A stretch of DNA of 23,365 bases, from positions 1 to 23,365 of IMG/VR virus record IMGVR_UViG_3300030104_005002, one strand, 5' to 3'. Source of the stretch: a virus. The translations under genes and the position numbers were made by a program. The notes below the pieces were generated by a model that was not told the origin of the DNA, searched no databases, and was given only the letters and a program-made list of their open reading frames with translations. Shown here in pieces: positions 521-18,200 of the stretch (the stretch's first letter is position 1; every line of letters begins with the position of its first letter).

Positions 521-919
521 ATGCCAATTAAGCGTTCACGTAGTTTTAGGGATATTAGTCTATCTTTTAAACGTCATCCCATTACGAACGATGTGACTGC
601 CCTCAAGAATGAGGACGCAATCAAGAAATCTGTCATAAATCTCGTCCGAACTGCAATCGGAGAGAGATTTTTCAATGATATTCTGGGAACATCTGTTGGA
701 GATGCACTTTTTGAATTAGATACATTTGATAATGATGTATTAAGGGAAGAAATTATCGCATTATTGCAGAACTATGAACCTAGAATCGATCTGACCAACG
801 TTTTTGTTCAGGTTTCACCCGATTCTAATGATTTATTTGTCAAAATTGAGTATGACATTGTTGGATTACCACTTCCTACACAGAATGTAGAGTTTCTATT
901 ACAACCATCTAGGATATAA
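521..919 (+). CDS. gp25: Baseplate wedge subunit gp25
   Basis: This 132-residue protein has the same length as T4 gp25. It carries the family's diagnostic segment NYEPRID (about residues 87-93), the EPR-type core shared by gp25 and the contractile-injection-system TssE proteins. The earlier GERFFNDILGTSVGDALFE corresponds to the 'G.RPF.PEFG..L...LFE' segment of the family. In T4, gp25 forms part of the wedge core with gp6 and gp53 and helps seed sheath attachment. The ATG at 521 is the first start in the frame, because TAG (491-493) and TGA (503-505) stop codons lie just upstream. Its ribosome-binding site is weak (GAAG at 514-517). The stop codon overlaps the ATG of gp6 by one base (TAATG), so the two are likely translationally coupled, in keeping with their joint place in the wedge. 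Confidence 0.95.
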   Translation: MPIKRSRSFRDISLSFKRHPITNDVTALKNEDAIKKSVINLVRTAIGERFFNDILGTSVGDALFELDTFDNDVLREEIIALLQNYEPRIDLTNVFVQVSPDSNDLFVKIEYDIVGLPLPTQNVEFLLQPSRI

Positions 920-2829
920 TGGCATTCAATCAGTTTACCAATCTCGATTTTAATGATATCAGAGAGCAGATAAAGGATTATCTGCGGTCGAATAGTAATT
1001 TTACGGACTTCGACTTTGAAGGATCGAACTTTTCGGTTTTAATCGACACGTTAGCATATAATTCTTACGTCACTGCCTACAACACTAACATGGCAGTGAA
1101 CGAATCGTTCATTGATAGTGCGACATTGAGAGAAAATGTCGTATCTTTAGCAAGAAATATTGGATATGTCCCCAGATCGAAGAAAGCAGCAACTGCAAGA
1201 GTCACTTTTAATGCTCAAGTCAATGCTAGATCGGTCACATTGAAGAAAGGTGTAGTTGCACTGGGTGGTGCAGAGAACTCAAACTACATTTTCTCGATTC
1301 CAGAGGATATTACAGTAACTTCAAACTCCCAAGGAGTGGTGACGTTTAGCAATATTGAAATTTTTGAAGGAAATTTACTGAAAAAGTCCTTTACAGTCGA
1401 TTATTCCCAACCAGATCAGAAATATATCCTACCAACTGCGGGTGTTGACACTTCTACCATCCGTGTTAAGACTGTTGGAACTGCAATTGAGGAATATACG
1501 CCATATACAAACATTTTCAACGTCGATGCCGACACTCGCTTGTACCTCATACAAGAAATTTCGGATGAAAAGTATCAAATTCTCTTCGGAGACGGCATTT
1601 TAGGTAAAAGACCTGCTGATGGAAGTAAAGTTGAAGTCACTTATATTGAAACAACTGGTTCAGCAGCAAATGGTGCTAGCAACTTCAATTTCTCTGGTCA
1701 GTTGATTGCTAGAAAAGAAGGAATTGACCGAAATGTAACAAGTGGTATCTCCGCTGTAACGACCCTACAAGCGGCAGAACAGGGTGATGACATAGAAGAC
1801 ATCGATACTATTAAATACCTTGCTCCTAGGGTCTATGCATCGCAGTACAGAGCGGTCACTGCCAATGATTACACTTCATTGATACCTTTTCTGTATCCCA
1901 ATGTTGAATCTGTCTCCGCATACGGTGGTGAAGAGTTAGATCCTCCACAATACGGTAAAGTCTTCATTACAATCAAACCCAAGAATGGTGATTTTCTCTC
2001 CGATATCGCAAAAGACAATATCAAGAGCAAATTAAAGGAATACACCATTGCTGGTATCAGACAAGAGTTCTTGGATTTGAAATATCTATATGTAGAGTAT
2101 GATAGCACAGTTTCATATAACCCAAGTTTCGTTACAAACACTGAAGATCTGTTTACTAGGGTTACAAATGCAATTGTAAACTACTCTAAGTCAACTGATA
2201 TCAATTCCTTCGGTGGAAGACTGAAGTATAGTAAACTTCTTCGTCAAATTGATAACGTTGATGCTGGAATCACTTCAAATATCACTAATCTGGTCATCAG
2301 AAGGAATTTGGTCCCTGCATACGACACTCTTGCCAATTATGAACTCTGTTATGCAAATGCATTCCATGTTGAGGTCGAAGGTTTCAATCTTAGATCATCT
2401 GGATTTACAGTTTCCGGTATTACTGGGACTTGTTTCCTGACTGATGTCCCTGATACCACTATTACCATTCCTGGAAGACCACAGCAAGTTGCACCAACGA
2501 CTGGATCTATATCAATCTTCAAATTTAATGAAAATAATGAGATTGTTACTGTTATTGCAAATGCTGGAACTGTTGATTACGTAAAAGGTGAGGTTATTCT
2601 CTTCCCAATCAACATTTCATCGACAGTTCTTAGTAATCGCATTGAAATCGGGGTCACACCTGAGTCAAATGATATCGTCGCAAAAGAGAATCTTTATATC
2701 ATCCTAGATACTACAGGAAAAAGTGTTTTAACGTTGAAAGAAGATTTGATCACCTCAGGATCAAGTAGATCTGGTATGAAATACGTTCCTCCCTCAAGTT
2801 ACACTAGCAGCACGAAATTTACTCGATAA
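919..2829 (+). CDS. gp6: Baseplate wedge subunit gp6 (gpJ-like)
   Basis: This 636-residue protein is close to the length of T4 gp6 (660). The N-terminus (FTNLDFNDIREQIKDYLR...FEGSN, then LIDTLAYNSYVTAYN and SATLRENVVSLARNIGY) is the classic start of cyanomyovirus gp6 and of the wider baseplate J-like family. The middle contains the family's GDG core (YQILFGDGILGKRPADGSKV, about residues 217-236) and the later RVYASQYRAVTANDYTSLI segment. Gp6 dimers form the continuous ring that joins the wedges and responds to sheath contraction. It overlaps gp25 by one base. Its TAA stop is followed by a single codon (GAA) and then the in-frame ATG of the next gene. The C-terminal tail is Ser/Tyr-rich and likely disordered. 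Confidence 0.95.
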   Translation: MAFNQFTNLDFNDIREQIKDYLRSNSNFTDFDFEGSNFSVLIDTLAYNSYVTAYNTNMAVNESFIDSATLRENVVSLARNIGYVPRSKKAATARVTFNAQVNARSVTLKKGVVALGGAENSNYIFSIPEDITVTSNSQGVVTFSNIEIFEGNLLKKSFTVDYSQPDQKYILPTAGVDTSTIRVKTVGTAIEEYTPYTNIFNVDADTRLYLIQEISDEKYQILFGDGILGKRPADGSKVEVTYIETTGSAANGASNFNFSGQLIARKEGIDRNVTSGISAVTTLQAAEQGDDIEDIDTIKYLAPRVYASQYRAVTANDYTSLIPFLYPNVESVSAYGGEELDPPQYGKVFITIKPKNGDFLSDIAKDNIKSKLKEYTIAGIRQEFLDLKYLYVEYDSTVSYNPSFVTNTEDLFTRVTNAIVNYSKSTDINSFGGRLKYSKLLRQIDNVDAGITSNITNLVIRRNLVPAYDTLANYELCYANAFHVEVEGFNLRSSGFTVSGITGTCFLTDVPDTTITIPGRPQQVAPTTGSISIFKFNENNEIVTVIANAGTVDYVKGEVILFPINISSTVLSNRIEIGVTPESNDIVAKENLYIILDTTGKSVLTLKEDLITSGSSRSGMKYVPPSSYTSSTKFTR

Positions 2830-2832
2830 GAA

Positions 2833-5800
2833 ATGTCAGATAGTAAAGTAAAAATCTCCAATATTCTGGAAAGTCAACTTCCAGAATTTATTTTAGATGA
2901 TAATCCCCTTTTTAAAGAATTTTTAGAACAATACTATCTGTCTCAGGAACATGAGTACGGAACAATCTTTCTTGCAGAGAATGTTGATATATTAAAAGAT
3001 GTTGATAGTTACGTAAATCTCAAATTTACTGCAACTGCACCACAACTGACCAAATTCATTTCAAACGATGATGATCTCATTGAGGTCACCAATCATTTAG
3101 GATTTTTGTCAAAAAATGGACTTGTGAAAATCGGTGAAGAGATTTTTACGTACACTGGCAAAACAACCTATGCCCAAAAGGTCACTTTAGTTGATCCGAC
3201 TGCTAATACCATCAAATTGACATCTACTGTCGGTTTAGATTCATTTAGAGCGCAAAGTATTATCTTTGATACGTCATTTTCGACTGTTGTTGCTGGTCGG
3301 GTCTATTACGTCAGTGAAGTTATAGATTCTAACACTATTACAATTTCTGATGACCCAACTACTCTTGATGATGTATTAAATCTTGATATAACTAACCCAT
3401 TAGGTGCAACTCTTCCTACTGCTACTAATTTTGCCTTTACTGGATGCGTCAGAGGATTTTCTGGTATTGATAATATCAGTGGAGAGTATCTGAACTTCAA
3501 TAATAGTCGATCTTCGTTCCATGATGCAGGATCAACTCTTACTAATCTTGGTCTGGTATTCTTAGCAGAATTCTTCAGTAAGTACAAGAATATGTTCTTA
3601 CCAGGAATTGAAGAAAGAAAGTTCCAGAACGTTAATATCGATAATATCCTCTCAAGAGCAAGAGACTTCTATAGTTCAAAGGGAACTGACACTTCATTGA
3701 AGATTCTCTTCACTGTTCTCTTTGGAAAGTTTGTTGAGGTTCTAAAACCATTCGATAATACGATTCAGGCATCTGGTGCTAACTTCTCACAGTCAGATGT
3801 AGTGGTTGTAGAAGCAATTGAAGGAAATCCAAGAAATCTTGGAGAAACAACTTTACTTCAAGGATCAACTGATGCTCCAACTGCAACAGCTACCATTTCA
3901 AGAGTTGAAACTATACTCTTAGGTACAAAGTATTATCACAAGTTATTCTTCCCCAAGAATACGATTCAAAATAAGTTCATGGTCAGTAAAAAGACCAGAG
4001 TCTTAGGTGTTGGTGCTACAAATACAACTCTGACTGTAGATTCAACGATTGGATTCCCAGACAGTGGTTCATTCCTCAATGAAGATAATAATGGACTCGA
4101 AACAGTCACATATGAAAGTAAGAGTGCTAACCAATTCTTTAACTGTGTAGGACTCTCCACAACTCTTGTAGAGAATAGTCCAATCATTGATGGAAACTTT
4201 GTATATGGTTACGAAAATTTCGATATCAACAAACTCGTCACAATGCGAGTTGTTGGCACTGTTATAGGACTTGCAGATAACAAAAAAGGTACGAGTCAGT
4301 TCAGAAAGAATGATATGCTTCGAGTGAAGCACCTTGGTGAAAAGGTAGAAGAAGATGATGTAAGATTCAACAGGTGGTTCCATAACAATGTAGTTCTTAC
4401 AAATGTCGATAGTGTTACTGGAACAACGTTTACAACCGAAGTTGACCACCACTTACATCAGGGCGACAAAGTTGATATTTTACTGAAAAATGACAAGTCC
4501 GTATTAGAAGAAAATCTGAATGTTTCTGATGTAGACAACAGAAAGACATTTACAGTCTCTGGAACTATAACCACTACTTTTGTTAACACTAAAGATTATC
4601 TTATCAAGAAAAAACTTGATTTTGGATCCAGTAACCTCAATGCGGATGGTGTTTTGGCAAATATCCAAAATACTTTCGTTGACACAGATAAGAACGCATA
4701 CGTCGCATTCTCGGGACTTCCTGGGTACGATAATATAGAAGTGACAAATAGATCTAAAACTTTTACTGATTCGGAGATAGATCAAAATGCCAATGAGTTT
4801 AATATTTCCGATCACAACTTTAGAAATGGTGAAAGAGTATACTACGAAGTAGTTTCAGGTGCTACTGGTATTGCAACAGGAAACTATTATGCTTCCGTAA
4901 TTGATACAAATACTGTAAAACTATCATTCAGTCGTGCATCTCTTGACAATGAAGTTTATATTAACTTTACTGGTATTACTACAGGTAGTGAGCATAGACT
5001 GACTCCATCAACTTTGTTTAATAGAAATCTAGTTAATCAGAATCATTTCAAGAGAATTAATAGAAATCCAGCAGAAGCAACTGAACACAATGATATTATT
5101 GGACCAATTGGTGTTGCATTAAATGGTATTGAATATCAATCACCAATTTCAAGAGATGTAATTTTCTATGGTCAGATAGATGGTATTAATGTTCTGAATT
5201 CAGGAACTGGTTACGATGTTGTGAATCCACCCCAAATTGGAATTGCAAATACTAATGGAAGTGGTGGTGCTACTTTTGTGGGACAGTTTATAGGAAAGAT
5301 TGAAGATATCAATCTTACTGCTCCTGGTTTCAATTACGTAGAAACTCCTGTTGTTACGATTTCTGGAGGAAACGGAACAGAAGCAACTGCTGAGGCAAGA
5401 CTGAGAGGATTTTTCTACAGCCAGACATTCACCGATTTTGATGGTGTAAAAATTGCTAGTAATGTTATTAGTATCCCTGATCATAGATTCGCAGATAATG
5501 AAGAGGTTATATACTCCAGCACTGGAACTCCTATTGGTATCGGTAGCACTGCTGTTGGTTTTGGAACAGACAGACTGACATCTGAAGCAATATACTTCCT
5601 TAAGAAGATCAGTTCTACTGATGTACAGATCCACCCATCAAGAGCAGATGTATTAGCGGGAATCAACACAGTTGATATAACTGCTTTCGGAAATGGTACT
5701 CATAAGTTTAGATCTAGAGATCAGAGAAAGATCATTGATAGGATTGTTGTTACAAGTTCTACTGATGACTTTTCTACTAAAAAAGTAGTTGTAGATGGCG

Positions 5801-8800
5801 TAGCATGGCCACCAGCAGATCAGAAGGATCTTTATAAGTCTTTTGTCGGTGTTAATGTAGAACAGAACTACATCTATGCAAGAAATCACGCTTTGAAAAC
5901 TGGTGATAACGTAGAGTATTCATTTGATGGCACTACTATTGGTGGACTATCAACATCGGCAAATTACAAGGTAACTGTCCTGGATCAAGACAGATTCCTC
6001 TTGAGTGAGGCAGGAACACCAACCACTATCAGTAGTGTTAACTTTGATAAAAAGTCTTATGTGGACCTTACCAGTGTGGGTGCTGGTACACATACGTTCC
6101 AGTATCCAGTAATCAGCGTTAAGATTAATGGAATAGTTTCTGCTGGAAATACTGATGCTATTCCTTCATATTATAACGCCATTGGTTCTCCCGTAATCCG
6201 TGGAAGACTTGATAATGTATTTGTCAGAAATGGTGGTGTCGGATATGGTGTATCCGATGTAATGAACTACAAGAGAGATATTGAAGTTAAGGTTGAGACT
6301 GGAAAGGGAGCAGACCTCAAAGCAATCGTTGTTAATGGAAAGATTGTTTCAGCGTATGTTGCAAATGCAGGTGTAGAATATACATCTCCTCCAACCATTA
6401 ATGTTGTTGGTTCGGGTAGATTGGCAAGAGTGACTGCCAATATTCAAAATGGTTCAATAACATCGGTTACTATTATCGATGGTGGTAGTGGATATACCTC
6501 AGACACAAGACTAGAAGTTATTCCAACTGGTGCCAATGCTCAGTTGAGTCCAGATATTCATGAATGGGCGCTTAATGATGTAGAAAGATTTAAAGTAGCA
6601 CTTCAACTGGATAATTCACAAATCCTGAAAAAGGATAGATTGAATAGAGAAACGGTTCAGATTCACTCTGGAACTCCTCTAAAAGAAACTAAGTTGGTTT
6701 CTTTCTATCCTGGAGCACATTATCGTGGTATATTAAAAGATAACGTCAAAGACACTGGAGAGGAAGTTGATACAGACTTTGCTCACTCTCCAATAGTTGG
6801 ATGGGCATATGACGGTAATCCAATCTATGGTCCATATGGTTTCGCTGAAGCAGTATTCGATGGTGCCAATAATGGTGGCGTCAAGGTAATGCAATCAAGT
6901 TATGAAATTGATTTAGAAGGTTCCACATTACTCAGACCACCTGGTAATGATGGATTATATGTACAAGACTATGTTTATAAAGCAACTGGTGATCTTGATG
7001 AGTACAATGGAAGATTCTGCAAAACAGATGAGTTCCCTGAGGGAACATATGCATATTTCTCCACTATAGAAAATGCTGATACTGCTGCACCACCTATTGC
7101 AGGTCTTGCGTATCCATATATCACAAAGTCACACTATAATCAAACTGACTCTTTCAACTACGATTCTCTTCATAGTCAAGCTGATGTAATCATCAATACT
7201 GGTGATTATAAGAGAAATGTAACTCATCTTGGACTTAATGATCCCTCTAGAGAATATGTCTTCTTAGATGATTCTATGTCTTCTGATGTAAAAGTTACCA
7301 TCAAAGATATTAAACCTTCTAGGATTGGTTCTGTTAGTGTTATTAATTCTGGTTCTGATTATAAAGTTGGTGAGCAAGTTAATTTCAATGAGGAATCAAT
7401 TGATGTTGAAATTGGTGAAGTTAAAGGAAAGGATATTGTTTCTATTGGAACTTCTGACACTGTATTGCAAAATACTATCTTTAGAGTTAAAGGTAATGTA
7501 GTCACTGGTGTTACTACAATTCCACACGGTTTCTTTGATGGTGATATCGTCGAAATTACTGGTATTGGTTCTGCAACTTATAAAAACCTTGAAGGTTTTG
7601 TAAGTGTTGGAGTTGCTACAGTAATATCCAATACCACAGTTGCCATTGGTGCAACAACAGCAACTGGTATTACCACTACAATTTCACTGAGTTCTTCTAC
7701 ATTCACAGAAAAATTTGTAGCAGGTGACATTATCAAAGTTGGTAATGAGTTAATGAAGATTAATGCTATCGATGATGTCAATAACAATTACAAAGTTACA
7801 AGGATTGTTAATGATAGCACTGGAAGTAACCATAGTCTGAATGCTATTGTTAGATTGCAACCCCAGGTCTTCAGATTCATTATTGATCAGAAGTTAGAAA
7901 ATAAAAATATAATTGTCGCACATGAACAAAACTTTGCCAAAGTTAATATTGGTATAGGTAACAGTTATACTTCAGTTGTTGTTGGAACTGCCGGAAGTTC
8001 AAATGTCACAGTTTCAATTCCAGACCGTGCAATCTTCCTTCCAGGACACAAGTTTGAAACTGGTGACGAACTGAATCTCGTTTCTATTGGAGGAACGATT
8101 CGTGCTTCTGCAAAATCAGACGGATCTAATCCCTTTGATATTTCCACAACTTCTCTCTTTGCAGTCAATGTAAGTACTGACTTCATCGGAATTGCAACTT
8201 CTAAAGCATTTGTTGGTATCAACTCTACGCTTTTCTTTGTCAGTGCTTCTACAGGAAATAATCACACGTTATCACAGGTAAAGAATAATCTTTCAGGTAC
8301 TGTTAAGAAGGTATTTGCTAATGTTGGAGTTGCAACTGATCATGGATTGCAACTAGGAGATGAAGTTAAATTTGGTATAACCCCTAATGCAGTTCAACAG
8401 TTTGTACTTAAGTTTAACCCAGATATTAATAAACTGGTTGTAGATCCTAAGACCTTCGCACCTGCTGGAATTACAACTGTAACTAATCCACTTGATTCAA
8501 TCGTAGTCGTAAATCACGGATTGAATACCGGTGATCTTGTGGTTTATACAAATACTGGTGGCGTTGCAACACCCCTTCAGGATAATAGAGAGTATTATGC
8601 AATCAAGATTGACGAAGATACATTTAGACTTGCAGAAACAAAAGTTGATACCCTGTTCCCATTTAATGATATTACTATTACTAGTCAGGGCAGTGGAACT
8701 CACGAAATTGCAAAAGTAAATCCAAAGATTGATATTATCAATGGTGGAAGATTTGCATTGAATACAGGAGATACAAGTCTTTCTGGATATGATATCAATT

Positions 8801-11800
8801 TCTATAAGGATAATAAGTTCCAGTGTAGATATGATTCCCTTAACATCAAGAGAGATGGAGTGATTGGTGATGGTAGTCCCACCACACAAATCATAGTCGA
8901 TATCGATAAAGATCTCTTAAATACTTTCTATTACAGAATTGAAGGAGATGATGCAAACTTTACAAATACATTCCCATCATCTGCAGATGAAACTGTAGAT
9001 AACTATTCTACTATCACCAAAGTAGAATCTAAGTTCAACCAAAACTACAAACTTACAGGAGTTGGAAACACTACCTTTAGTTTCACTTTAGTTGGTGCTG
9101 CAGAAACAACATTATACACTCCTGCAGGATTTAGCACTGGATTCTATTCTACCAGTTCACTAACTGCTGTTGGTGGAATTCATTCAGTTAAAGTAGTGAA
9201 TGATGGTATCAATGTCAGAGAGTTCCCAGCAATTACATCTATAGGAACTACCACAGGAGTTAATGCAGACCTGAAGGTGACAGACACAGATATTGGTGAA
9301 GTTACAGATGAAGTAGTCACCATTCCTGGTATTGATTTCTCTGAAGATAAAACTATTAAACCAAAAACAGATAGTTCTCTTGTTCTGAAACTCAAGAATA
9401 TTAGAACACTGTTGGGAGTTGGTATTGCTACTGCTGGAAATGATTATAATGTTCCACCAAAAGTTATTGCAATTGGAAATGATAGTATCGTTACAAAGAC
9501 AACATTATCTGGTGGTTCTGTTGGAAAGGTTGAAGTTATTTCTACTGACAGTAATTTAAGAGAAGATCTTAGGATTATTGCAACCAATAACTCAAATGGA
9601 ATTGGTGTTGTTAATGCTACCTCTTCTAGCGGTGTGAATGAAATTTTCCTCAAAGCACCACAAGGATTAGGTGGATTTGGGGATAACTTCCCATTTGCAG
9701 AAAAGGATCTAGTTTTTATAGAAAACATCCAGGTCACTAATGCTCCTCTTGTAGATGGATATAACTCAAGTGATTATGGTTTCAGATTATTTGAAGTATC
9801 TGGGATTAGCACTACTCCTGGAATTGAAAGTATCAAGTACAAGATCACTGGTATAGGTTTTACTGGTGGCACCTATAACATTGCTCAGAATGCACAGTTT
9901 GGTAGAGTCATCAAAGCAACTGATCTGGCAACATTTACTCCAGAGTTTGGTAGCATACGATTCTCAGCAGGTGAAAAAATTGTTGATATCAATAATCCAA
10001 ATGTATTTGGTATTGTAGCAGAGGATGGATGGGATGAAGAATCAGGTATATTGAGACTGAATGGTGTCAGTGGTGAATTTACTACAGATACAGTCGTTCG
10101 TGGTAATGTAGGCAACTTTAAAGGAACTATTTCTGAGATTAATGAGTATGACTTTGACTTTGAGGTAGGAAGCACTTCAAGAGATTCTGGAATGTGGAAA
10201 GATGATATTGGTAAGACGAATGATAGTCTCCAGAGACTTCATGATAATGATTACTATCAAAGATTCTCATATAGTATCCGTGGTGAAATCCCACTACAAG
10301 AGTGGGAAGAGGCTGTTGATAGTCTAGACCATACTGCTGGATACAAGAACTTCTCAGATTACCAGATTATCACTTACCCACCAAAGAAAGTAAATGTTGC
10401 AATTGCAGACACAGCAGAATTTAACCTTCTGGTGGATATTGAGCAAGATGCATCAGTCCATTCAAGAATAAGTTATGATCTTGCATCTGAAGATACGGAT
10501 ACATCAGGACTTTCTAAAATCATTAAACTTGATTCTAAGGTAATTACTGATTACAACGAATCTAGAACCAATAAGGTTCTGATGATTGATGATATTGGTT
10601 CACAGTTTAATGGTGTTGGAAACTCTGCTGGTCAACTTGTTGGTCTGAGCACCTTCAGCATATTTACTGGTGGCAATACAATGCTTCATCATATCGTCAA
10701 TCCTGCGACTGGTATTGGTAACAGCATAGTTACAGTCACAGACCACGAATTTAATACTGGTGAAGAACTTCTATATGATCCAACAAATGCTGGCATCAAT
10801 ACCGGATCTCGTTTGAGTATTGGATCTACCAGTGTTCCTGGTATTGGTCTTACTACTCTTCTCCCAGATAAGGTATTTGCAGTCAGAATAACCAAAGATC
10901 AGTTCAAAGTTGCTATCAGTGCAGCAGATGTAGCACTTGGAAGATTTGTATCATTTACAAATAGCACTGGAATCGGTCTTACTCAATCCTTCTCTACAGA
11001 TGGTGATCTTGCGACTACCAGAAGTATGATTACGATTGATAATATTGTACAAAGTCCTATTGCAGTAAAACCAGTAGGTGTTGCTATCACCATGTCTGAG
11101 GCTGTTGGAGTTGGTTCAACTCAGATTACAGTCAGTGATTCATCTAAGATTGTAGGTAAGTCCTTACTCCGATTCGGAAATGGGGAGATTGTTAAAGTTG
11201 ATCTGGTAAATGCAGGTAATGTCCTCGATGTCCAACGTGGAGCAATGGGAACAGTTGCTGCTGCATATGCTGTCGGTACTGCTAGTAGCGTCGTTACAGG
11301 CGATTATAGAATCAAACAGGGTAAGATCTACTTCAGTGATGCACCATACGGACCTGCTGGAGTTGTTGGTATAACAACTAGATCAACTTTCTCTGGTAGA
11401 ATTTTCTACAGATTAAACTACGATAGTAATGCTATCTTTGATGATATCTCCGAATCTTTCAATGGAACTGCTGATCAATTTGCAATCATTAGCAGTGGTG
11501 TTGCAGTAACTGGTATCACTACTGCTCATGGTGCAGTTCTGATTAACAATATCTTCCAGAAACCATTCCTTTCACCGATTGGTTCGATTTTAGTCGCTGA
11601 CTATCGAATCGTCAAAAATACTACCGGAGAGGATCTTGACTTTACTGGAAGTCCAAATATTGCTGATCTTCCCAAGGGTGGTATTATCAATGAGTTTACA
11701 GCGACTTCTGGTACTAACTATACTGTCCCTGCTCGTGCCATCGGTGTTGCAGTAGTAAATGGTTCTGGTGTAGTCACCGGAGTTACAGTTGGTGTTGGTA

Positions 11801-13728
11801 GCACTGGCATTCGTTCTGGTGGTGGCGGTCACTTATTCGCACCCAATGTCTCGATTGCAGATACATTGGGTGGTGGAACAGGTGCTGCTGTTACTGCAAC
11901 AGTTGGTGCTGGTGGATCAATCACTGGATTCACTGTTGTATCTGGTGGTACTGGATATACCCAAGCAACTCCACCTCTGGTATTCACAGACGAACCTGCA
12001 CCATATAAAAATCTTAAATTGGTTGGTGGTGCAGGTACTGACGCCAAGATGGACGTTGTTGTAAGTACTGGTGGTAGTATTATCAGTTTCAATATGTCCG
12101 ATCGGGGTATTGGATATCAAGAAGGTGATGTTCTTGAGTTGAGTGGTTTACCATTCGATCCAGTTGGTATTGGTTCTACCAATATGTTGGTAACTGTCAG
12201 CAACAAGTTCCAAGATAAGTTCTCTGGATGGGTATTTGGTCAACTTCTTGAATTGGATGATATCAGTATTCAATTTAATGGTGCTAAAACTCAATTCCTA
12301 ATTACCAGGACAGAAACCAACAAGGAGTTCTACAGTATTGTTGCTCAAGAAGGATCTGGTGTAATACTCCAAAATAACTTCTTGATTTTCATGAATGATG
12401 TTCTTCAGAAACCTGGAGTTGATTATGAATTTAATGGTGGTACAAGACTTAAGTTCAAAGAAGCACCGAGAAAAGGAAGTAAGTTTAGAATGTATTTCTA
12501 CACTGGATCTGAAGATGACTTCCTTAAAGTTGATGTTGATCAAACAATTAAAGAAGGTGATGAATTAAGACTCCAATATCAAGATCCTTTTGTTAGTCAG
12601 GATCCGAGAGTTGTCTATGCATTGATTGCTTCGGATACTGTTGAGACTGAAACTTATACCGGTGTTGGTATTAATACAGATAATGCATTCCTTAGACCTG
12701 TAGAATGGACTAAGCAAACTTCTGATGTTATTATTGATGGTCTTACCATCTCCAAGAAGAGAAATTCCCTTGAACCACAGTATTTCCCATCAACGAATCT
12801 TACTCAACCTGTTGGTGAAACAGATACTGAAATAAATGTTGAAAGTACCTGGAATTTCCAACAGGTTGATAATCTTCAACAAACACAACAGGATATTAAG
12901 ATTATTTCTCAAGATCCAAACGAACTTGCTTTTGCTACTGCTACCGTTAATGGGTCAGGAGTAGTTACTGGACTTACTATTACAGATGCTGGATCTGGAT
13001 ACAAAACTGCACCACAAGTTACTATAAGTTCACCCGGAGTGGGATCATCACAAAGAGCCCTCGCTACTGCAACCATTGGTGCAGGTGGAACTGTTACTGG
13101 ATTTACTGTTACTGCTGGTGGTAGTGGATATACCAGTGCAAATCCACCAATAGTAATAATTGAAGCAGAACCACCTGTTACTGAAAAGATTCAGCAAGTT
13201 ACATATCAAGGTGACTACGGATTAGTTGAAGAAATTACAGACTTTGCTTCTGGTGATTCGGGTGCAGTCAATTCATTAGATACAATTAAGTTTAGAATAA
13301 TTCCAAACCCAGAGATTTTTATTACATCAGGAAATTCAGCACCAAACAAGATTACAAGCACTGCTATTACTGCAGGAGATTACTTTGTAATTAGGAATAC
13401 TGTTATTGGTACTGGTGTTACTTCAATTGATGGTGATGTATCCACTATCGTTGCAAATGGAGAAAACTTCATTGATAATGTTTATCGTGCTGCTTCGGTC
13501 GTTTCTATCTCTGGAACAGACGCAAAACTTGTATCTGCAAATGTTCTTTCTATTGTAGGAGTTAATACTTCTATCCAACTCAAAAAATATGGAGACTTTA
13601 GTTGGGGTAAAATCGTTACGGGATCTAGAAATGGATCATCGTTCGTATTCCAAAAAGATAATCCACTTGGAGTTACTACTTCAGGATTTGTTCAGCGAAG
13701 TACCGAGTTAAAAGCAGAGTACTCATAA
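2833..13728 (+). CDS. Giant gp7-position baseplate/tail protein with YHYH domain and beta-module repeats
   Basis: This is an uninterrupted 3631-residue frame, more than three times T4 gp7 (1032). Residues 16-310 resemble the C-terminal part of T4 gp7: an N-terminal FKEFLEQYY...YGT segment and RDFYSSKGTDTSLKILF (277-293), matching T4's DFYSTKG...YKFLF. Position between gp6 and gp8 agrees. The rest is a mosaic: small E-x-x-xY / GCVRG modules (about 92-212, 397-440, 2757-2822); nine H-x-[FL]-x-x-G-[DE] modules (539-2638); eleven GSGY-type beta repeats (794-3433); a YHYH-like domain (1319-1411); a Trp/Tyr-rich DYYQRFSY block (2455-2505); and FNG/LQKP fibre-type modules (2586-3200). I count only four Cys by eye. 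There is no signal peptide or membrane segment. The likely role is the wedge gp7 equivalent, with a long C-terminal extension forming peripheral fibre- or arm-like structure. The gp7 link rests on motif comparison from memory. Confidence 0.9.
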   Translation: MSDSKVKISNILESQLPEFILDDNPLFKEFLEQYYLSQEHEYGTIFLAENVDILKDVDSYVNLKFTATAPQLTKFISNDDDLIEVTNHLGFLSKNGLVKIGEEIFTYTGKTTYAQKVTLVDPTANTIKLTSTVGLDSFRAQSIIFDTSFSTVVAGRVYYVSEVIDSNTITISDDPTTLDDVLNLDITNPLGATLPTATNFAFTGCVRGFSGIDNISGEYLNFNNSRSSFHDAGSTLTNLGLVFLAEFFSKYKNMFLPGIEERKFQNVNIDNILSRARDFYSSKGTDTSLKILFTVLFGKFVEVLKPFDNTIQASGANFSQSDVVVVEAIEGNPRNLGETTLLQGSTDAPTATATISRVETILLGTKYYHKLFFPKNTIQNKFMVSKKTRVLGVGATNTTLTVDSTIGFPDSGSFLNEDNNGLETVTYESKSANQFFNCVGLSTTLVENSPIIDGNFVYGYENFDINKLVTMRVVGTVIGLADNKKGTSQFRKNDMLRVKHLGEKVEEDDVRFNRWFHNNVVLTNVDSVTGTTFTTEVDHHLHQGDKVDILLKNDKSVLEENLNVSDVDNRKTFTVSGTITTTFVNTKDYLIKKKLDFGSSNLNADGVLANIQNTFVDTDKNAYVAFSGLPGYDNIEVTNRSKTFTDSEIDQNANEFNISDHNFRNGERVYYEVVSGATGIATGNYYASVIDTNTVKLSFSRASLDNEVYINFTGITTGSEHRLTPSTLFNRNLVNQNHFKRINRNPAEATEHNDIIGPIGVALNGIEYQSPISRDVIFYGQIDGINVLNSGTGYDVVNPPQIGIANTNGSGGATFVGQFIGKIEDINLTAPGFNYVETPVVTISGGNGTEATAEARLRGFFYSQTFTDFDGVKIASNVISIPDHRFADNEEVIYSSTGTPIGIGSTAVGFGTDRLTSEAIYFLKKISSTDVQIHPSRADVLAGINTVDITAFGNGTHKFRSRDQRKIIDRIVVTSSTDDFSTKKVVVDGVAWPPADQKDLYKSFVGVNVEQNYIYARNHALKTGDNVEYSFDGTTIGGLSTSANYKVTVLDQDRFLLSEAGTPTTISSVNFDKKSYVDLTSVGAGTHTFQYPVISVKINGIVSAGNTDAIPSYYNAIGSPVIRGRLDNVFVRNGGVGYGVSDVMNYKRDIEVKVETGKGADLKAIVVNGKIVSAYVANAGVEYTSPPTINVVGSGRLARVTANIQNGSITSVTIIDGGSGYTSDTRLEVIPTGANAQLSPDIHEWALNDVERFKVALQLDNSQILKKDRLNRETVQIHSGTPLKETKLVSFYPGAHYRGILKDNVKDTGEEVDTDFAHSPIVGWAYDGNPIYGPYGFAEAVFDGANNGGVKVMQSSYEIDLEGSTLLRPPGNDGLYVQDYVYKATGDLDEYNGRFCKTDEFPEGTYAYFSTIENADTAAPPIAGLAYPYITKSHYNQTDSFNYDSLHSQADVIINTGDYKRNVTHLGLNDPSREYVFLDDSMSSDVKVTIKDIKPSRIGSVSVINSGSDYKVGEQVNFNEESIDVEIGEVKGKDIVSIGTSDTVLQNTIFRVKGNVVTGVTTIPHGFFDGDIVEITGIGSATYKNLEGFVSVGVATVISNTTVAIGATTATGITTTISLSSSTFTEKFVAGDIIKVGNELMKINAIDDVNNNYKVTRIVNDSTGSNHSLNAIVRLQPQVFRFIIDQKLENKNIIVAHEQNFAKVNIGIGNSYTSVVVGTAGSSNVTVSIPDRAIFLPGHKFETGDELNLVSIGGTIRASAKSDGSNPFDISTTSLFAVNVSTDFIGIATSKAFVGINSTLFFVSASTGNNHTLSQVKNNLSGTVKKVFANVGVATDHGLQLGDEVKFGITPNAVQQFVLKFNPDINKLVVDPKTFAPAGITTVTNPLDSIVVVNHGLNTGDLVVYTNTGGVATPLQDNREYYAIKIDEDTFRLAETKVDTLFPFNDITITSQGSGTHEIAKVNPKIDIINGGRFALNTGDTSLSGYDINFYKDNKFQCRYDSLNIKRDGVIGDGSPTTQIIVDIDKDLLNTFYYRIEGDDANFTNTFPSSADETVDNYSTITKVESKFNQNYKLTGVGNTTFSFTLVGAAETTLYTPAGFSTGFYSTSSLTAVGGIHSVKVVNDGINVREFPAITSIGTTTGVNADLKVTDTDIGEVTDEVVTIPGIDFSEDKTIKPKTDSSLVLKLKNIRTLLGVGIATAGNDYNVPPKVIAIGNDSIVTKTTLSGGSVGKVEVISTDSNLREDLRIIATNNSNGIGVVNATSSSGVNEIFLKAPQGLGGFGDNFPFAEKDLVFIENIQVTNAPLVDGYNSSDYGFRLFEVSGISTTPGIESIKYKITGIGFTGGTYNIAQNAQFGRVIKATDLATFTPEFGSIRFSAGEKIVDINNPNVFGIVAEDGWDEESGILRLNGVSGEFTTDTVVRGNVGNFKGTISEINEYDFDFEVGSTSRDSGMWKDDIGKTNDSLQRLHDNDYYQRFSYSIRGEIPLQEWEEAVDSLDHTAGYKNFSDYQIITYPPKKVNVAIADTAEFNLLVDIEQDASVHSRISYDLASEDTDTSGLSKIIKLDSKVITDYNESRTNKVLMIDDIGSQFNGVGNSAGQLVGLSTFSIFTGGNTMLHHIVNPATGIGNSIVTVTDHEFNTGEELLYDPTNAGINTGSRLSIGSTSVPGIGLTTLLPDKVFAVRITKDQFKVAISAADVALGRFVSFTNSTGIGLTQSFSTDGDLATTRSMITIDNIVQSPIAVKPVGVAITMSEAVGVGSTQITVSDSSKIVGKSLLRFGNGEIVKVDLVNAGNVLDVQRGAMGTVAAAYAVGTASSVVTGDYRIKQGKIYFSDAPYGPAGVVGITTRSTFSGRIFYRLNYDSNAIFDDISESFNGTADQFAIISSGVAVTGITTAHGAVLINNIFQKPFLSPIGSILVADYRIVKNTTGEDLDFTGSPNIADLPKGGIINEFTATSGTNYTVPARAIGVAVVNGSGVVTGVTVGVGSTGIRSGGGGHLFAPNVSIADTLGGGTGAAVTATVGAGGSITGFTVVSGGTGYTQATPPLVFTDEPAPYKNLKLVGGAGTDAKMDVVVSTGGSIISFNMSDRGIGYQEGDVLELSGLPFDPVGIGSTNMLVTVSNKFQDKFSGWVFGQLLELDDISIQFNGAKTQFLITRTETNKEFYSIVAQEGSGVILQNNFLIFMNDVLQKPGVDYEFNGGTRLKFKEAPRKGSKFRMYFYTGSEDDFLKVDVDQTIKEGDELRLQYQDPFVSQDPRVVYALIASDTVETETYTGVGINTDNAFLRPVEWTKQTSDVIIDGLTISKKRNSLEPQYFPSTNLTQPVGETDTEINVESTWNFQQVDNLQQTQQDIKIISQDPNELAFATATVNGSGVVTGLTITDAGSGYKTAPQVTISSPGVGSSQRALATATIGAGGTVTGFTVTAGGSGYTSANPPIVIIEAEPPVTEKIQQVTYQGDYGLVEEITDFASGDSGAVNSLDTIKFRIIPNPEIFITSGNSAPNKITSTAITAGDYFVIRNTVIGTGVTSIDGDVSTIVANGENFIDNVYRAASVVSISGTDAKLVSANVLSIVGVNTSIQLKKYGDFSWGKIVTGSRNGSSFVFQKDNPLGVTTSGFVQRSTELKAEYS
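2878..3750 (+). other. gp7-like core region of the giant protein
   Basis: Residues 16-306 carry two blocks that I match to the C-terminal part of T4 gp7. The first is a helical block around residues 20-45 (FKEFLEQYY...EYGT). The second is around residues 244-306, with FFSKYKNMFLPG, then RDFYSSKGTDTSLK and FGKFVEV. Between them (about 92-212) an inserted module contains EEIFTYTGK and FTGCVRGFSG, which T4 gp7 lacks at this point. The core thus lies at the extreme N-terminus here, whereas in T4 it follows a long N-terminal portion. Confidence 0.7.
4441..6108 (+). repeat. H-x-[FL]-x-x-G-[DE] beta modules, first cluster (four copies)
   Basis: Four protein-level repeats start with HHLHQGDKV (His 539), DHNFRNGERV (His 661), DHRFADNEEV (His 884) and NHALKTGDNV (His 1019). 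In the last three the motif is followed by a Tyr-rich strand, an [A/I]YF or NYY/NYK segment, a 'D..x.V/F.L/H.S' strand, and a closing GT-H or EH segment (SEHRLTP, GNGTHKF, GAGTHTF). Each full unit is roughly 65-85 residues. The copies are strongly diverged at DNA level, so this is an old protein repeat and not a recent tandem duplication. Confidence 0.7.
5161..6540 (+). repeat. GSGY-type beta repeats in the giant, first cluster (five copies)
   Basis: Five short repeats match 'I..V.....G.GY....P.V.I': aromatic positions 794 (NSGTGYDV), 835 (APGFNYVETP), 1138 (NGGVGYGV), 1183 (NAGVEYTSPP) and 1221 (GGSGYTSDT). Each is a beta strand, a Gly-rich turn ending in Tyr, then a Pro-containing strand of about 30-40 residues, often followed by a G-[AS]-x-A-x-[AV] strand. 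They are interleaved with the H-x-[FL]-x-x-G modules. Confidence 0.7.
6787..7074 (+). other. YHYH-like domain within the giant protein
   Basis: Residues 1319-1411 contain SPIVGWAYDGNPIYGPYGF (from 1319), then LDEYNGRFCKTDEFPEGTYAYF (ending about 1409). These match, in order, the hallmarks of the YHYH domain family: 'G.A.DGfPIYGPyg', 'LDe.NGr', and 'T.EfPdGtYhYh'. The family's name-giving Tyr-His-Tyr-His is here Tyr-Ala-Tyr-Phe, so both His are missing. A YPGAHYRG segment about 20 residues upstream may belong to the same fold. The family is found in many secreted or surface proteins, and its biochemical role is not well defined. Within a baseplate protein it is likely a surface-exposed binding or structural domain. 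Confidence 0.75.
7501..8715 (+). repeat. H-x-[FL]-x-x-G-[DE] beta modules, second cluster (four copies)
   Basis: PHGFFDGDIV (His 1565), GHKFETGDEL (His 1739), DHGLQLGDEV (His 1837) and NHGLNTGDLV (His 1895) continue the series. The fourth is complete, with REYYAIKIDEDTFRLA and a closing GSGTHEI. The second and third are shorter, ending near NNHTLSQV and running into the next copy. Short G-[IV]-[GA]-[ST]-T linkers recur between them. Confidence 0.65.
10180..10380 (+). other. DYYQRFSY block in the giant protein
   Basis: Residues about 2450-2516 read MWKDDIGKTNDSLQRLHD, DYYQRFSYSIRG, LQEWEEAVDSLDHTAGYKNF. The block is rich in aromatic and charged residues, unlike the Gly/Thr/Val-rich sequence around it. 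I recall a similar 'W..d.G..Nd..q...D..YYQ.FSY.I......W...V....H.AG.k' block in other large myovirus tail proteins, so it is probably a conserved folded domain rather than a repeat. No function is known to me. Confidence 0.5.
10585..12480 (+). repeat. FNG / LQKP fibre-type modules (three copies)
   Basis: Three segments share 'DI[GS]x.FNG': DIGSQFNG (from 2587), DISESFNGTADQF (from 2872) and DISIQFNGAKTQF (from 3143). The second and third are followed by a short strand and then NNIFQKP or NDVLQKPGVDYEF, with the third continuing into LKFKEAPRKGSKFRMYFY. This order is the familiar 'FNG..T.F.L ... NGVLQ.PG.DY ... I.F...P..G....I.Y' module seen in many phage tail-fibre proteins. It supports a fibre-like nature for the C-terminal third. 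Confidence 0.6.
10720..10999 (+). repeat. H-x-[FL]-x-x-G-[DE] beta module, ninth copy
   Basis: DHEFNTGEELLY (His 2638) begins a full unit of about 90 residues. It runs through VFAVRITKDQFKVAIS and AADVALGRFVSF, closely paralleling the second copy's YFLKKISSTDVQIHPS and RADVLAGINTVDI. The pairing of copies two and nine is the clearest internal evidence that the repeat is real. Confidence 0.65.
12937..13164 (+). repeat. Tandem GSGY repeats near the C-terminus of the giant
   Basis: Two nearly adjacent copies, ATATVNGSGVVTGLTI.DAGSGYKTAPQVTI (Tyr 3390) and ATIGAGGTVTGFTV.AGGSGYTSANPPIVI (Tyr 3433), are the best-conserved pair of the family. They repeat with a period of 43 residues. Earlier relatives lie around Tyr 3042 (SGGTGYTQATPP) and Tyr 3095 (DRGIGYQEGD). 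The segment AVVNGSGVVTGVTV at 11743-11784 is very similar to the 12943-12981 stretch, which points to internal copying. Confidence 0.75.
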
Positions 13729-13758: not shown

Positions 13759-15294
13759 ATGCCTGCCATAATCACTGACCAATTTAGAATTTTGAATGCG
13801 GAGACCTTTACCAAGTCCGTGACTGGTATTGGCACGACTTCAAACTTTTATTATACCTTCTTGGCGCACCCCAATCCTACGAATGTCTCTATTGAAGACT
13901 ATGGTGATGGTAATTGGGGAACTACTCCACCAGATCCAAGAGATTCTTTTCAACAAGAAGACAGATATGCTGACTCAATGCTCTTCTTGAAAAAGATTGG
14001 TATTAATGATTTTGCAAGAATTGTACCAAGAATCAATTGGGCATCTGGTATAACCTATGACATGTATAGGAATAATTATGATATTACCAATGATGCACCA
14101 CAGACTAGTGCAAAGACATTATATGAGTCTCGCTTCTATGTCGTAAACTCTGAATTCAAGGTTTATATCTGCATCAACAATGGAGCAAATCCTGATTTCC
14201 CAGATGGAAGACCATCACAGTTTGAACCAACCTTTGTAGATACCTCTCCACAAATTGCAGGAGATGGTTCTGATGGATATCTTTGGAAGTTCCTTTATTC
14301 GATTTCTCCTGCGGATATTGTTAAATTTGCTACAGAAAAGTACATACCAGTTCCTGCAAACTGGGGAGATGTCAATACCGCAGCAGTGAAGGATACTGCT
14401 GTTCGTGGTCATATTGAAACAGTTGTAATCACGAAAAGAGGAACTGGATATACAACAGGAACTAATACATATTCAAATATAGATATTCTTGGTGACGGAA
14501 CTGGAGGTAAGGTCTCTATCACTGTATCTGACCAGGAAGTTTCTTCCATTGAAGTTACAGATGGTGGAAAGGACTACACCAAAGGATTGATTAACTTTAC
14601 TCAAGCCGGTGGATCTGGTGCAGAATTTGAAATTATCATTCCCCCAAAGGGAGGTCATGGAGCAGATATTTATCGTGAGTTAGGTACGTATAGAGTAATG
14701 GTTTACTCTAAGTATGATACTGCTGCTGACTTTGCAGCACAAAATAACTTCTCAAGAATTGGTATCGTAAGAAATCCAAATGAATTTGGAAGTTCAACAT
14801 CCATCCTAAATAAAAATACCGCAACCTCGCTCGGTGCATTGAAATTGGCAGGTGCTGGAAACACTTCCGACACCATTTACAAACTAAATGCTGAAATCAG
14901 ACAATCAGTCGGTACTGCCGGTTCATTTGCTGTTGGATATGTTGCTTCTTGGGACAGAGATACTGGAGTCCTAAGATATTATCAACCAGTTGGTTTTACT
15001 ACCTTAACGGGTAATAATTTCAAAAACTTTGATTTTGAAAGTAATGCTAATGTGATCAACACTTCTCCATCCACTGATGTAACAGGTCCTGCTTTAGCAC
15101 CTGATACCACATTCAATGGTTCCAGTATAACACTTAGCAACAAAGTAGTTGATTTAGGACAAACTTTCGCTGGTGGAAAATCAAATCCAGAAGTTGAAAA
15201 GTTTTCAGGTGATATTATCTACATTGATAACAGAGCACCAGTCGGTAGATCTGAATCCCAAAAAGAAGAAGTAAAAATCGTAGTAGAGTTCTAA
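13759..15294 (+). CDS. gp8: Baseplate wedge subunit gp8 (enlarged)
   Basis: This is a 511-residue protein; T4 gp8 has 334. Blocks match T4 gp8 in order: an N-terminal ITDQFRI...NF (T4 ITSKFRT...NF); PPDPRDS near residue 54 and IVPRINW near 88 (T4 VIPRRDW); DGYLWKFLYSISPADIVKFATEKYIPVP at about 171-198 (T4 DGYVWEYLFEIPPDV...EYIVVP); RIGIVRNPNEF (T4 QISIITNPLEA); and the C-terminal GDIIYIDNRAPV...EEVKIVVEF (T4 GEMIYMENRPPI...EEINILFTF). In T4, a gp8 dimer binds gp7 and gp10 in each wedge. The added length sits in two places: residues about 205-300, which hold two GSGY-type repeats, and about 350-470. The start follows GGA at 13751-13753 at a normal spacing, downstream of the late promoter. Confidence 0.93.
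   Translation: MPAIITDQFRILNAETFTKSVTGIGTTSNFYYTFLAHPNPTNVSIEDYGDGNWGTTPPDPRDSFQQEDRYADSMLFLKKIGINDFARIVPRINWASGITYDMYRNNYDITNDAPQTSAKTLYESRFYVVNSEFKVYICINNGANPDFPDGRPSQFEPTFVDTSPQIAGDGSDGYLWKFLYSISPADIVKFATEKYIPVPANWGDVNTAAVKDTAVRGHIETVVITKRGTGYTTGTNTYSNIDILGDGTGGKVSITVSDQEVSSIEVTDGGKDYTKGLINFTQAGGSGAEFEIIIPPKGGHGADIYRELGTYRVMVYSKYDTAADFAAQNNFSRIGIVRNPNEFGSSTSILNKNTATSLGALKLAGAGNTSDTIYKLNAEIRQSVGTAGSFAVGYVASWDRDTGVLRYYQPVGFTTLTGNNFKNFDFESNANVINTSPSTDVTGPALAPDTTFNGSSITLSNKVVDLGQTFAGGKSNPEVEKFSGDIIYIDNRAPVGRSESQKEEVKIVVEF
14415..14640 (+). repeat. GSGY-type repeats inserted in gp8 (two copies)
   Basis: Residues about 220-294 hold two copies: IETVVITKRGTGYTTG (Tyr 231) and VSSIEVTDGGKDYTKG (Tyr 273). 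They are separated by 42 residues, nearly the same period as the tandem pair near the end of the preceding giant. The intervening GDGTGGKVSITV and GGSGAEFEIII strands match the 'G.GA.A.A.V' strands of the giant's copies. T4 gp8, as I recall it, has no counterpart here. Confidence 0.7.
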
Positions 15295-15298
15295 GAAC

Positions 15299-18200
15299 AT
15301 GACCCAGAACACCAATCTCAATGTATCGCCTTATTTTGACGATTTTGATGAGGATAAGAATTATAATAAGGTATTGTTCAAACCTGGATTCCCAATTCAA
15401 TCCAGAGAACTAACTACGTTACAGTCTATCCTACAAGGACAGATTGAAAAGTTCGGTCAACACTTCTTTAAAGAAGGGTCAATGGTTGTCCCTGGTGGTA
15501 TATTCTATGATTCAAACTATCCTGCGGTTAAGATTGATCCCACCTTCTTAGACGTTCCTGTTTCTGCATATACTACGTATCTTAAAGATAATAAAATTGA
15601 GATTCAAGGTGAGACTTCTGGTGTAAAAGCAACTGTTGTTAATTGCCTTTCAAGTACACAATCAGTTGATAATGTAGATACTCTTTATATTAAGTACACT
15701 TCTTCTGGAACTGATGGCGCAACGACAAAGTTCACAGACGGTGAAACTTTAATTACATTAGAAGATATTGTCTTTTCTTCTACTACTATTACTGCAAATA
15801 ATCCATTTGCAAGAGTAGTTGTATCTGACGCAACAAAGATTGGTTCTTCTGCTTCAATCAATGAGGGAGTATTTTTTGTTAGAGGATTTTTCATAAAAGT
15901 ATCTCCAGCGACTGTGATCCTGGATCAATATACCAATTCACCTAGTTATAAAGTCGGTCTTCAGATTTCAGAAGATATTCTGACTGCTTCTTCTGCAAAT
16001 CCAGATTTGTTTGACAATGCCAAGGGATTCTCAAATGAATCTGCTCCTGGTGCAGACAGACTTAGATTGACGGCAACTCTGGTCAAGAAAACACTCAAAG
16101 ATAATAACGATTCTAATTTCGTAGAACTGCTGCGTGTTGAGAATGGACTTACTCAAAAATTAGTCAGTAGAACTGAGTATAACATATTCAAGGATGAACT
16201 TGCAAGAAGAACTTTTGACGAATCTGGTGATTACTACGTCAAGAAATTTGCCATTGACGTCAGAGAGACTTTAAATGATAGACTTGGTAATAAGGGCATA
16301 TATTCACCAACTCAATTAACTCAGAGAGGTAATACACCTTCTGATGACTTAATGTCTCTCCAGATATCCTCTGGTAAGGCATATGTAAAAGGATACGAAG
16401 TTGAGAAAATTGGTTCGACTTCACTCGATAGTGTTAAACCAAGAACTACTAAGAAGAAAGAAAATATCAGTGTTCCAGTTAAAATTGGAAACAATGTCCA
16501 GGTAGAGAACCTAAGGGGTCAACCAACTATTGGATTCAGTAATAATAGTGTGGTGGATCTCAGAGATCGTAGACTTGCTCAAGATGGAACTCTTGATACT
16601 GCAGCAGTACTTATCGGTAATGCTAGAGTTTATGACATCAGTAAGAAAAATATAGCTGGCGTTGGCACAGAAAGATTCGATTTAAGACTTTACGATATTC
16701 AAACGTTTACTACTATTACACTCGGACTTGCAGTTACTGCTGGAAATGCAGCACATGTTAAGGGTGTATTCAGTGGAGCAACTGGTCACCTTAAAGATGC
16801 AGTTACAGATGCAACTGTTCTGAACTTATTAGATGTAACCGGTCAGTTCCAAATCAACGAACCAATTGAAATCAATGGACTTGCTGTAGGTAGAAATATC
16901 ACAGCAGTCAGGGATAATGATATCCGTGATGTCAAGTCTATCAGTGCAACAAGTTTTGCTTGTAACGTTGCAATGCAACAGACGACTAATCTTATCGAAC
17001 CTGGTTCAGCATTCCAAATTGGAGCAGATGCTGGTTCTGGTAGTGCTGTAACATCACCATCTGTTGGAGACTTCAGAAACGTTCCTGTCAGGGTCAATGA
17101 TATTGTTTCATTTACCATTCCAGGTCAAACTCTGCCTACATTCAACAGAGTAAGCGCAGTTACTGCTGGTTCACTCACCTTAGTTGGCGTTAGTACAGTA
17201 GTTGGTGTGAACACTGGTGGCACAGTAAAGGCTGCCAATGGTGGTGCTCTTGATAATGTTCAGAACTTGAATGTTGTTCAAGGTTTTATTGAAAAGGGAA
17301 ATGCTCCAGGAAAAACAGTTAAACTTCCCAACACTTCAATTTCGTCTATCAACCTTCTCGATAGTAGTTACATTGTAAGAAAGCAAAGAACTCTTAATGT
17401 TACTGCGACTACACTCACATTTAATATAAATGACCTCGGTGATGATACTCTGTTCTTAGAACCCTATAATCAAGAAAATTATAATTTGACCTTTGCAAAT
17501 GGTCATAAAGAAATTATTCTTGCATCTCAGGTTACAATCACTGCCAATCTTAAAGAGATTCAGTTTACAGGTCTTAGCCAGACTGGTAATAATGCGATAC
17601 TTACTGTTACTTGCAGAAGAAGCACTCTTACTTCTAAAACAAAGACTGTCAAGAGATGTTCTAATTTAGTTATATCAAGATCCAGAGTCCAAGGTTCTGG
17701 TGTTGGTGCTACAACGTTCGGTGATGGACTGACATTCTCAGAAGCGTTCCCATATGGAACAAGAGTCCAGGACGAAAGCATTTCACTCAATGTTCCAGAT
17801 GTTACTAGGATTCTTGGTATATTTGAATCCAATGATGAGGGTGCTCCCGATCTCCCACAACTTATTGGTTCTGCTCAAAGCGACACATTCTCCAATAATG
17901 TAGTTGTCGGAGAACAGATCGTTGGTGCAGAATCAGGTTCAGTTGCTCGCGTTGTCAGTGTTGATAGTGGCAATACACTTAGTTTTGTATATGAAAACGA
18001 TAAGATCTTTGAATTATTAGAAATAATTTCACTGCAAAGTTCTGGCATCACTGCAACTGTTAATACACTTGTCCTTGGTGATAGAAACGTAAGTTATGAC
18101 TATACTCTAGACGCTGGTCAAAGAGCAGAATTCTGTGATATTGCAAGGATCAATAGAAACTCAGATGCTGCCGCTCCATCTAGACAACTCAGAATTGTCT

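Follow-up and report, generated by a model that had tools for sequence, protein, structure and literature searches.

The closest described counterpart of the protein considered here is gp7 of phage T4 (Straboviridae; phrog_964; PDB 5IV5 and 5HX2), which is encoded between gp6 and gp8. In T4 and in compact phages, the gp7 core runs in the order block 1 (helical), domain V, and block 2, the last with the consensus D-N-x-Y-Y-Q-x-Y-S-Y ... H-P-A-G ... F-G; T4 gp7 also has a 640-aa N-terminal extension and a C-terminal domain VI, and its two core halves are adjacent. The compact gp7s (phrog_17744, phrog_26741; Pfam PF23786), among them those of phages OC (631 aa), X1 (498 aa), and Cr30 (767 aa), carry blocks 1 and 2 in an N-terminal core, as does the giant protein described below, but they lack its insertion A and have an inter-block gap of only ~100-550 aa. 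The gp7 orthologue of Vibrio phage XM1, gp17, has 242 residues with the core-bundle motif at 1-48, and its inter-helix loop (80-106) and C-terminus (201-242) each hold six tail spikes (PMC10457771). Giant proteins named gp7 or "baseplate wedge initiator" are found in the Kyanoviridae (phrog_2885, phrog_4406, phrog_701), in S-SSM7, P-SSM2, S-SCSM2R, and Syn33, while T4 gp7 has been stated to be absent from cyano- and pelagimyophages, with VrlC in its place (PMC7029224).

The window, by which we mean the whole stretch of DNA that was analyzed, comprises 23,365 bases from one cyanomyovirus, an ocean cyanobacterial virus, with the gene order gp25-gp6-giant-gp8-VrlC-type:

521-919: gp25, upstream of the giant gene
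919-2829, plus strand: gp6, the wedge partner (phrog_219, E 7.5e-191; Pfam Gp6 domains)
2833-13728, plus strand: giant gp7 gene, an intact ORF with an ATG start, 3631 aa, and no internal stop
13759-15294, plus strand: gp8, baseplate wedge (phrog_438, E 2.4e-149; Phage-Gp8)
15299-22678: DUF4815/VrlC-type protein, downstream of gp8

ORF calling and the PHROG and Pfam matches of the neighbors thus bear out the original prediction that a 3631-aa ORF lies between gp6 and gp8, directly after the former and before the latter. The giant matches phrog_2885, "baseplate wedge subunit", with E=0 in a PHROG search, and several GenBank records label its homologues as gp7 or "baseplate wedge initiator". Among related contigs, gp6 is immediately 5' of the gene in the gp7 place in 156 of 157. 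We note that the DUF4815/VrlC protein (2459 aa), directly 3' of gp8, is a second large protein of the baseplate cluster.

The prediction had placed at the giant's N-terminus the sequence blocks that T4 gp7 carries in its C-terminal third, and both motif positions and profiles agree with this. FKEFLEQYY occurs at residue 27, EYGT at 41, and RDFYSSKGTDTSLKILF at 277; the T4 counterparts are YGT at 679 and DFYSTKG at 733. Searched against PDB, a profile of 39 N-termini of giant-like (window-type) proteins returned gp7 of T4 at E 5.6e-6 and that of a Klebsiella phage at 3.3e-5; no other solved structure matched, the first unrelated entry having E 0.22. The block-1 HMM scored 20.7 bits (residues 4-62) and 26.6 bits (263-314) on the giant and 33-43 bits on five Straboviridae gp7s, against 10.8 bits for the best of 483 decoys (reversed or shuffled sequences). 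The giant carries a block-1 helical core homologous to T4 residues ~643-758. No rival gp7 gene emerged: across the genomes of 13 complete relatives, the T4 gp7 family profile (phrog_964) found no second gp7, and its matches, present in nine, all fall in the core of the gene after gp6. The profile gave no match in the other four (S-RSM4, MC09, HTVC008M, and DLP6), where the block HMMs do match. A phmmer search of the whole giant against PDB returned nothing useful, and the gp7 signal needs core alignments; an NCBIfam search of the giant returned no family. On sequence grounds, we identify the giant as the gp7 equivalent, the wedge subunit, of a T4-related cyanomyovirus.

Alignment of the giant with T4 gp7 and with its own relatives divides it into three core islands separated by two insertions and followed by a C-terminal extension:

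2842-3018, plus strand: core island 1, residues 4-62, the first block-1 helices (FKEFLEQYY...EYGT; block-1 HMM 20.7 bits)
3019-3546, plus strand: insertion A, residues ~63-238, within block 1, from alignments and HMM gaps
3547-4005, plus strand: core island 2, residues ~239-391, the second helices with RDFYSSKGTDTSLKILF and a domain-V-like beta domain
4006-10194, plus strand: insertion B, ~2060 aa (residues ~392-2454), predicted to be rich in beta strands over the part modelled, no window of it matching T4 gp7
6766-7071, plus strand: YHYH domain, residues 1312-1413, inside insertion B (Pfam PF14240, E 7.6e-22)
10195-10392, plus strand: core island 3 (block 2), residues ~2455-2520, LHDNDYYQRFSYSIRGEIPLQEWEEAVDSLDHTAGYKNFSDYQI
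10393-13725, plus strand: C-terminal extension, residues ~2521-3631 (~1110 aa)

The first island coincides with helices at residues 8-66 in an AF2 model of the giant, and giant residues 151-450 align with T4 gp7 709-823 by hhalign (prob 97.7, E 2.4e-12). Sliding a 300-residue window along the profile of the giant's own family gave just two regions of match to T4 gp7, and these follow the T4 order: windows within giant 1-450 matched T4 709-823, and windows within 2251-2700 matched T4 811-910, the latter moderately (prob 66, E 5e-5). All other windows had a probability of <5%. These two T4 gp7 segments lie side by side, and ~2060 residues separate their counterparts in the giant. As had been predicted, the profile and sliding-window matches are confined to T4 residues after ~640, and the long N-terminal portion of T4 gp7 (~640 residues) is missing from the giant, in which block 1 starts at residue 4. 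Domain VI was likewise not detected, there being no Pfam match to Gp7_6th and no T4 match after residue ~2550; insertions A and B and the ~1110-aa extension are the giant's in comparison with T4.

The block-2 HMM scored 58.1 bits at giant residues 2463-2514, with the best decoy at 2.1 bits, and this segment corresponds to T4 ~863-908, where the window-only profile is moderate (prob 66). In T4 gp7, the block HMMs hit residues 644-758 (block 1) and 864-888 (block 2); they also match the five Straboviridae gp7s, which were left out of HMM building, and every complete gp7 examined in a gp6-gp8 interval, with the order unchanged. A compact core profile containing both blocks aligned with Straboviridae gp7 over T4 644-906 (prob 99.1, E 1.7e-18; reversed control, prob 0.5). 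Against PDB, a profile of the same kind ranked two gp7s first, that of a KP1-variant Klebsiella phage (5.8e-11) and that of T4 (1.5e-9), with both blocks aligned; an alignment mixing compact forms diverged too much to be used for scanning. The case for block-2 homology between giant and T4 is made mainly through intermediate phages, with compact phages supplying the strong link.

Taken as an alignment result, the ~300-residue gp7 core is conserved, is colinear with T4 gp7 ~643-906, and is broken into three islands by insertions A and B. The blocks keep their T4 order but stand far apart, so the core has been split rather than moved. The original prediction, which had the core relocated to the N-terminus with an arm behind it, thus stands as to the N-terminal blocks and fails as to the move. 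Nor do ~3300 residues follow the core, as it had supposed; with block 2 at residues 2463-2514, only ~1110 do. Its beta modules are half right: residues 320-1150 are predicted to be nearly all-beta, but they precede the last island.

Relatives indicate how such a protein may have grown. Among 160 metagenomic loci, both blocks occur in 115 frames, in all of which block 1 is N-terminal, and block 1 alone occurs in 45, every one of which runs off the contig end. The inter-block gap widens from ~97 aa in the compact phages through ~180-980 in the intermediates to ~1570-2730 in cyanophages (in the metagenomic set, 96 to 981 for compact and intermediate forms and ~1870-2500 for cyanophage contigs). 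In named phages it measures ~100 (OC), ~550 (Cr30), ~1575 (S-RSM4), and ~2730 (Syn33), and ~2150-2230 in the window giant, S-SSM7, P-SSM2, and S-SCSM2R. As aligned here, the relatives form a continuum of core-gap lengths, and in one alignment (A4) additional segments of GGxGY type stand between domain V and block 2 of the intermediates. We also observed weak, repeated matches of these segments (loci L104-L183) to the T4 tail sheath protein gp18 (Gp18_dom_I; PDB 9x3p, 3foa). The Kyanoviridae giants share the core islands and the insertion B site with the window giant, and S-SSM7 aligns with it continuously from giant residue ~193 to ~2667.

A second growth site is insertion A, which is absent from compact phages and spans ~100 aa in most cyanophages, ~175 in the giant, and ~595 in Syn33. 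Syn33_092, whose best gp7 match lies at about residue 694, was considered as a candidate for a T4-like N-terminal extension and rejected, as helix 1 of its block 1 lies at 4-57 and the ~595 residues between its block-1 helical parts are insertion A. The gene in the gp7 place of P-SSM7, PSSM7_090 (L185, record positions 54052-75426), is longer still, at 21.4 kb and about 7124 aa compared with 6376 aa for Syn33_092. The third growth site is the C-terminus, which differs among the giants, with ~1110 aa in the window giant and ~2670 in P-SSM2. Compact gp7s that start directly with block 1 are found in Ochrobactrum OC, Desulfovibrio 7757, Xanthomonas X1, Caulobacter Cr30, Sinorhizobium phiM7, and Stenotrophomonas DLP6. 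Since every compact relative, like the XM1 orthologue, has its core beginning close to residue 1, the T4-family N-terminal extension is the exception, and this ~640-aa segment is most simply read, by parsimony on an unrooted comparison, as the T4 family's own addition.

Insertion B contains five copies of a beta-barrel-like repeat module that resembles the Pfam endosialidase beta-barrel (residues 653-702, 872-942, 1007-1065, 1727-1795, and 1887-1941), and the giant's modules (GGxGY, beta-barrel-like) recur in several cyanophage structural proteins. Within the C-terminal extension, residues 3340-3614 (window 12850-13674) match the gp14 neck / head closure family phrog_460, with a DNA match to cyanophage gp14 at 13063-13133. 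In S-SSM7, a stretch related to the giant's C-terminus is carried by a separate gene, SSSM7_103 (L003:30090-39095), behind a gp9-like connector; blastp aligns the extension with SSM7b 93-339 and 2087-2426. The extension is thus partly homologous to SSSM7_103, and this part is, depending on the phage, either fused to gp7 or encoded by its own gene. SSSM7_103 bears the annotation gp7 baseplate wedge subunit but lacks both core blocks; SSSM7_101 is the gene with the core. Syn33_094 (L012:10796-15961) was noted alongside SSSM7_103.

Structure prediction adds local support. The AF2 model of giant residues 1-1150 has a mean pLDDT of 70.9 and shows nearly all strands over 320-1150; Foldseek with this model returned nothing below 1e-3 from PDB, gp7 included, and its best BFVD match was a "baseplate wedge initiator" of phage Bellamy (E 1.3e-78). 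For an AF2 model of a compact relative, the top three PDB matches were baseplate chains of gp7 length from the KP1-variant phage, T4, and T4 (E 6e-10 to 4e-7), the only ones below 1e-3, with the next at 1.3e-2. With a mean pLDDT of 48.5 and TM-scores of ~0.15, this model is weak outside residues ~130-220, and what Foldseek supports is accordingly local. The gpI of P2 and gp48 of Mu, compared with the core by hhalign on single sequences only, gave prob 0.4-0.5 and no match.

Several readings other than a split core must be weighed against these data. The complete gp7 core could be residues 1-320, with everything behind it a C-terminal arm or fiber. The strongest T4 match, comprising block 1 and the domain-V-like region, does fall within giant 1-450, and the strands predicted for 320-1150 suit an arm; T4 gp7, however, also has block 2 (863-910), found in the giant at 2463-2514, and every complete relative examined carries block 2 as well, always in one frame with block 1 and farther downstream. 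We consider this reading improbable. One could instead suppose that block 2 belongs to tail proteins in general and occurs independently in gp7 and the giant, in which case the core would not really be split, and the recurrence of other giant modules in several cyanophage structural proteins offers a precedent. Block 2 does not behave in this manner: six-frame scans of 80 contigs turned it up in no frame without block 1; it is always a single copy and always downstream; and the block HMM did not find it in gp6, gp8, gp9, gp10, or VrlC-type proteins. This makes independent origins very hard to credit.

The published statement cited above leads to the most different reading, in which cyanophages lack T4 gp7 and use VrlC instead, the giant being an unrelated structural protein; consistent with this, T4 gp7 and the giant match no common Pfam family. 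VrlC-annotated genes are located after gp8, however, the VrlC-type protein of the window has neither block 1 nor block 2, and it is the giant, with homologues already called gp7, that carries the core between gp6 and gp8. We regard this last reading as refuted at the sequence level and give it almost no weight, and the statement that gp7 is absent is contradicted by the same comparisons. In pelagiphage HTVC008M, gp055 (L015:33435-36485), between gp6 and gp8, has both core blocks, and its annotation as "head closure Hc2" is probably a misnomer. None of the open-licence papers that we searched describes a gp7 whose core is split.

The account that we favor, and consider highly probable as a whole, is a three-island gp7 core with insertions A and B and a C-terminal extension, whose islands would rejoin as the wedge center and whose insertion B and C-terminus would become arms. 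The three islands would assemble with two copies of gp6 into the (gp6)2-gp7 wedge center, and insertion B and the C-terminus would leave it at surface points, giving six long peripheral arms. Such arms may do the work of the outer baseplate: they would carry receptor-binding parts and relay contact with the host to the wedge. Peripheral arms on the wedge core are suggested by where the insertions lie, by what they are made of, and by the example of XM1, with receptor binding or fiber holding as candidate functions; XM1 gp17 holds separate spike proteins and has no long arm of its own, and we liken it to the giant on its published anatomy. Possible, though on balance we lean against it, is a further step in which a kilo-residue receptor or sensor arm is inserted mid-core, so that its movement would act directly on the (gp6)2-gp7 center without separate T4-type gp10, gp11, and gp12. 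If that were true, the mid-core arm would be sensor and trigger in one polypeptide.

These findings locate which ~300 of the 3631 residues should make the wedge, and they allow annotations to be corrected, as for SSSM7_103, which is called gp7 without having the core. The wedge subunit gp7 is at the heart of T4-type baseplates, and its fate in cyanophages has been described in print as absence; the comparisons made here indicate instead that it persists in these phages, with outer modules added inside the core and not only at its ends.
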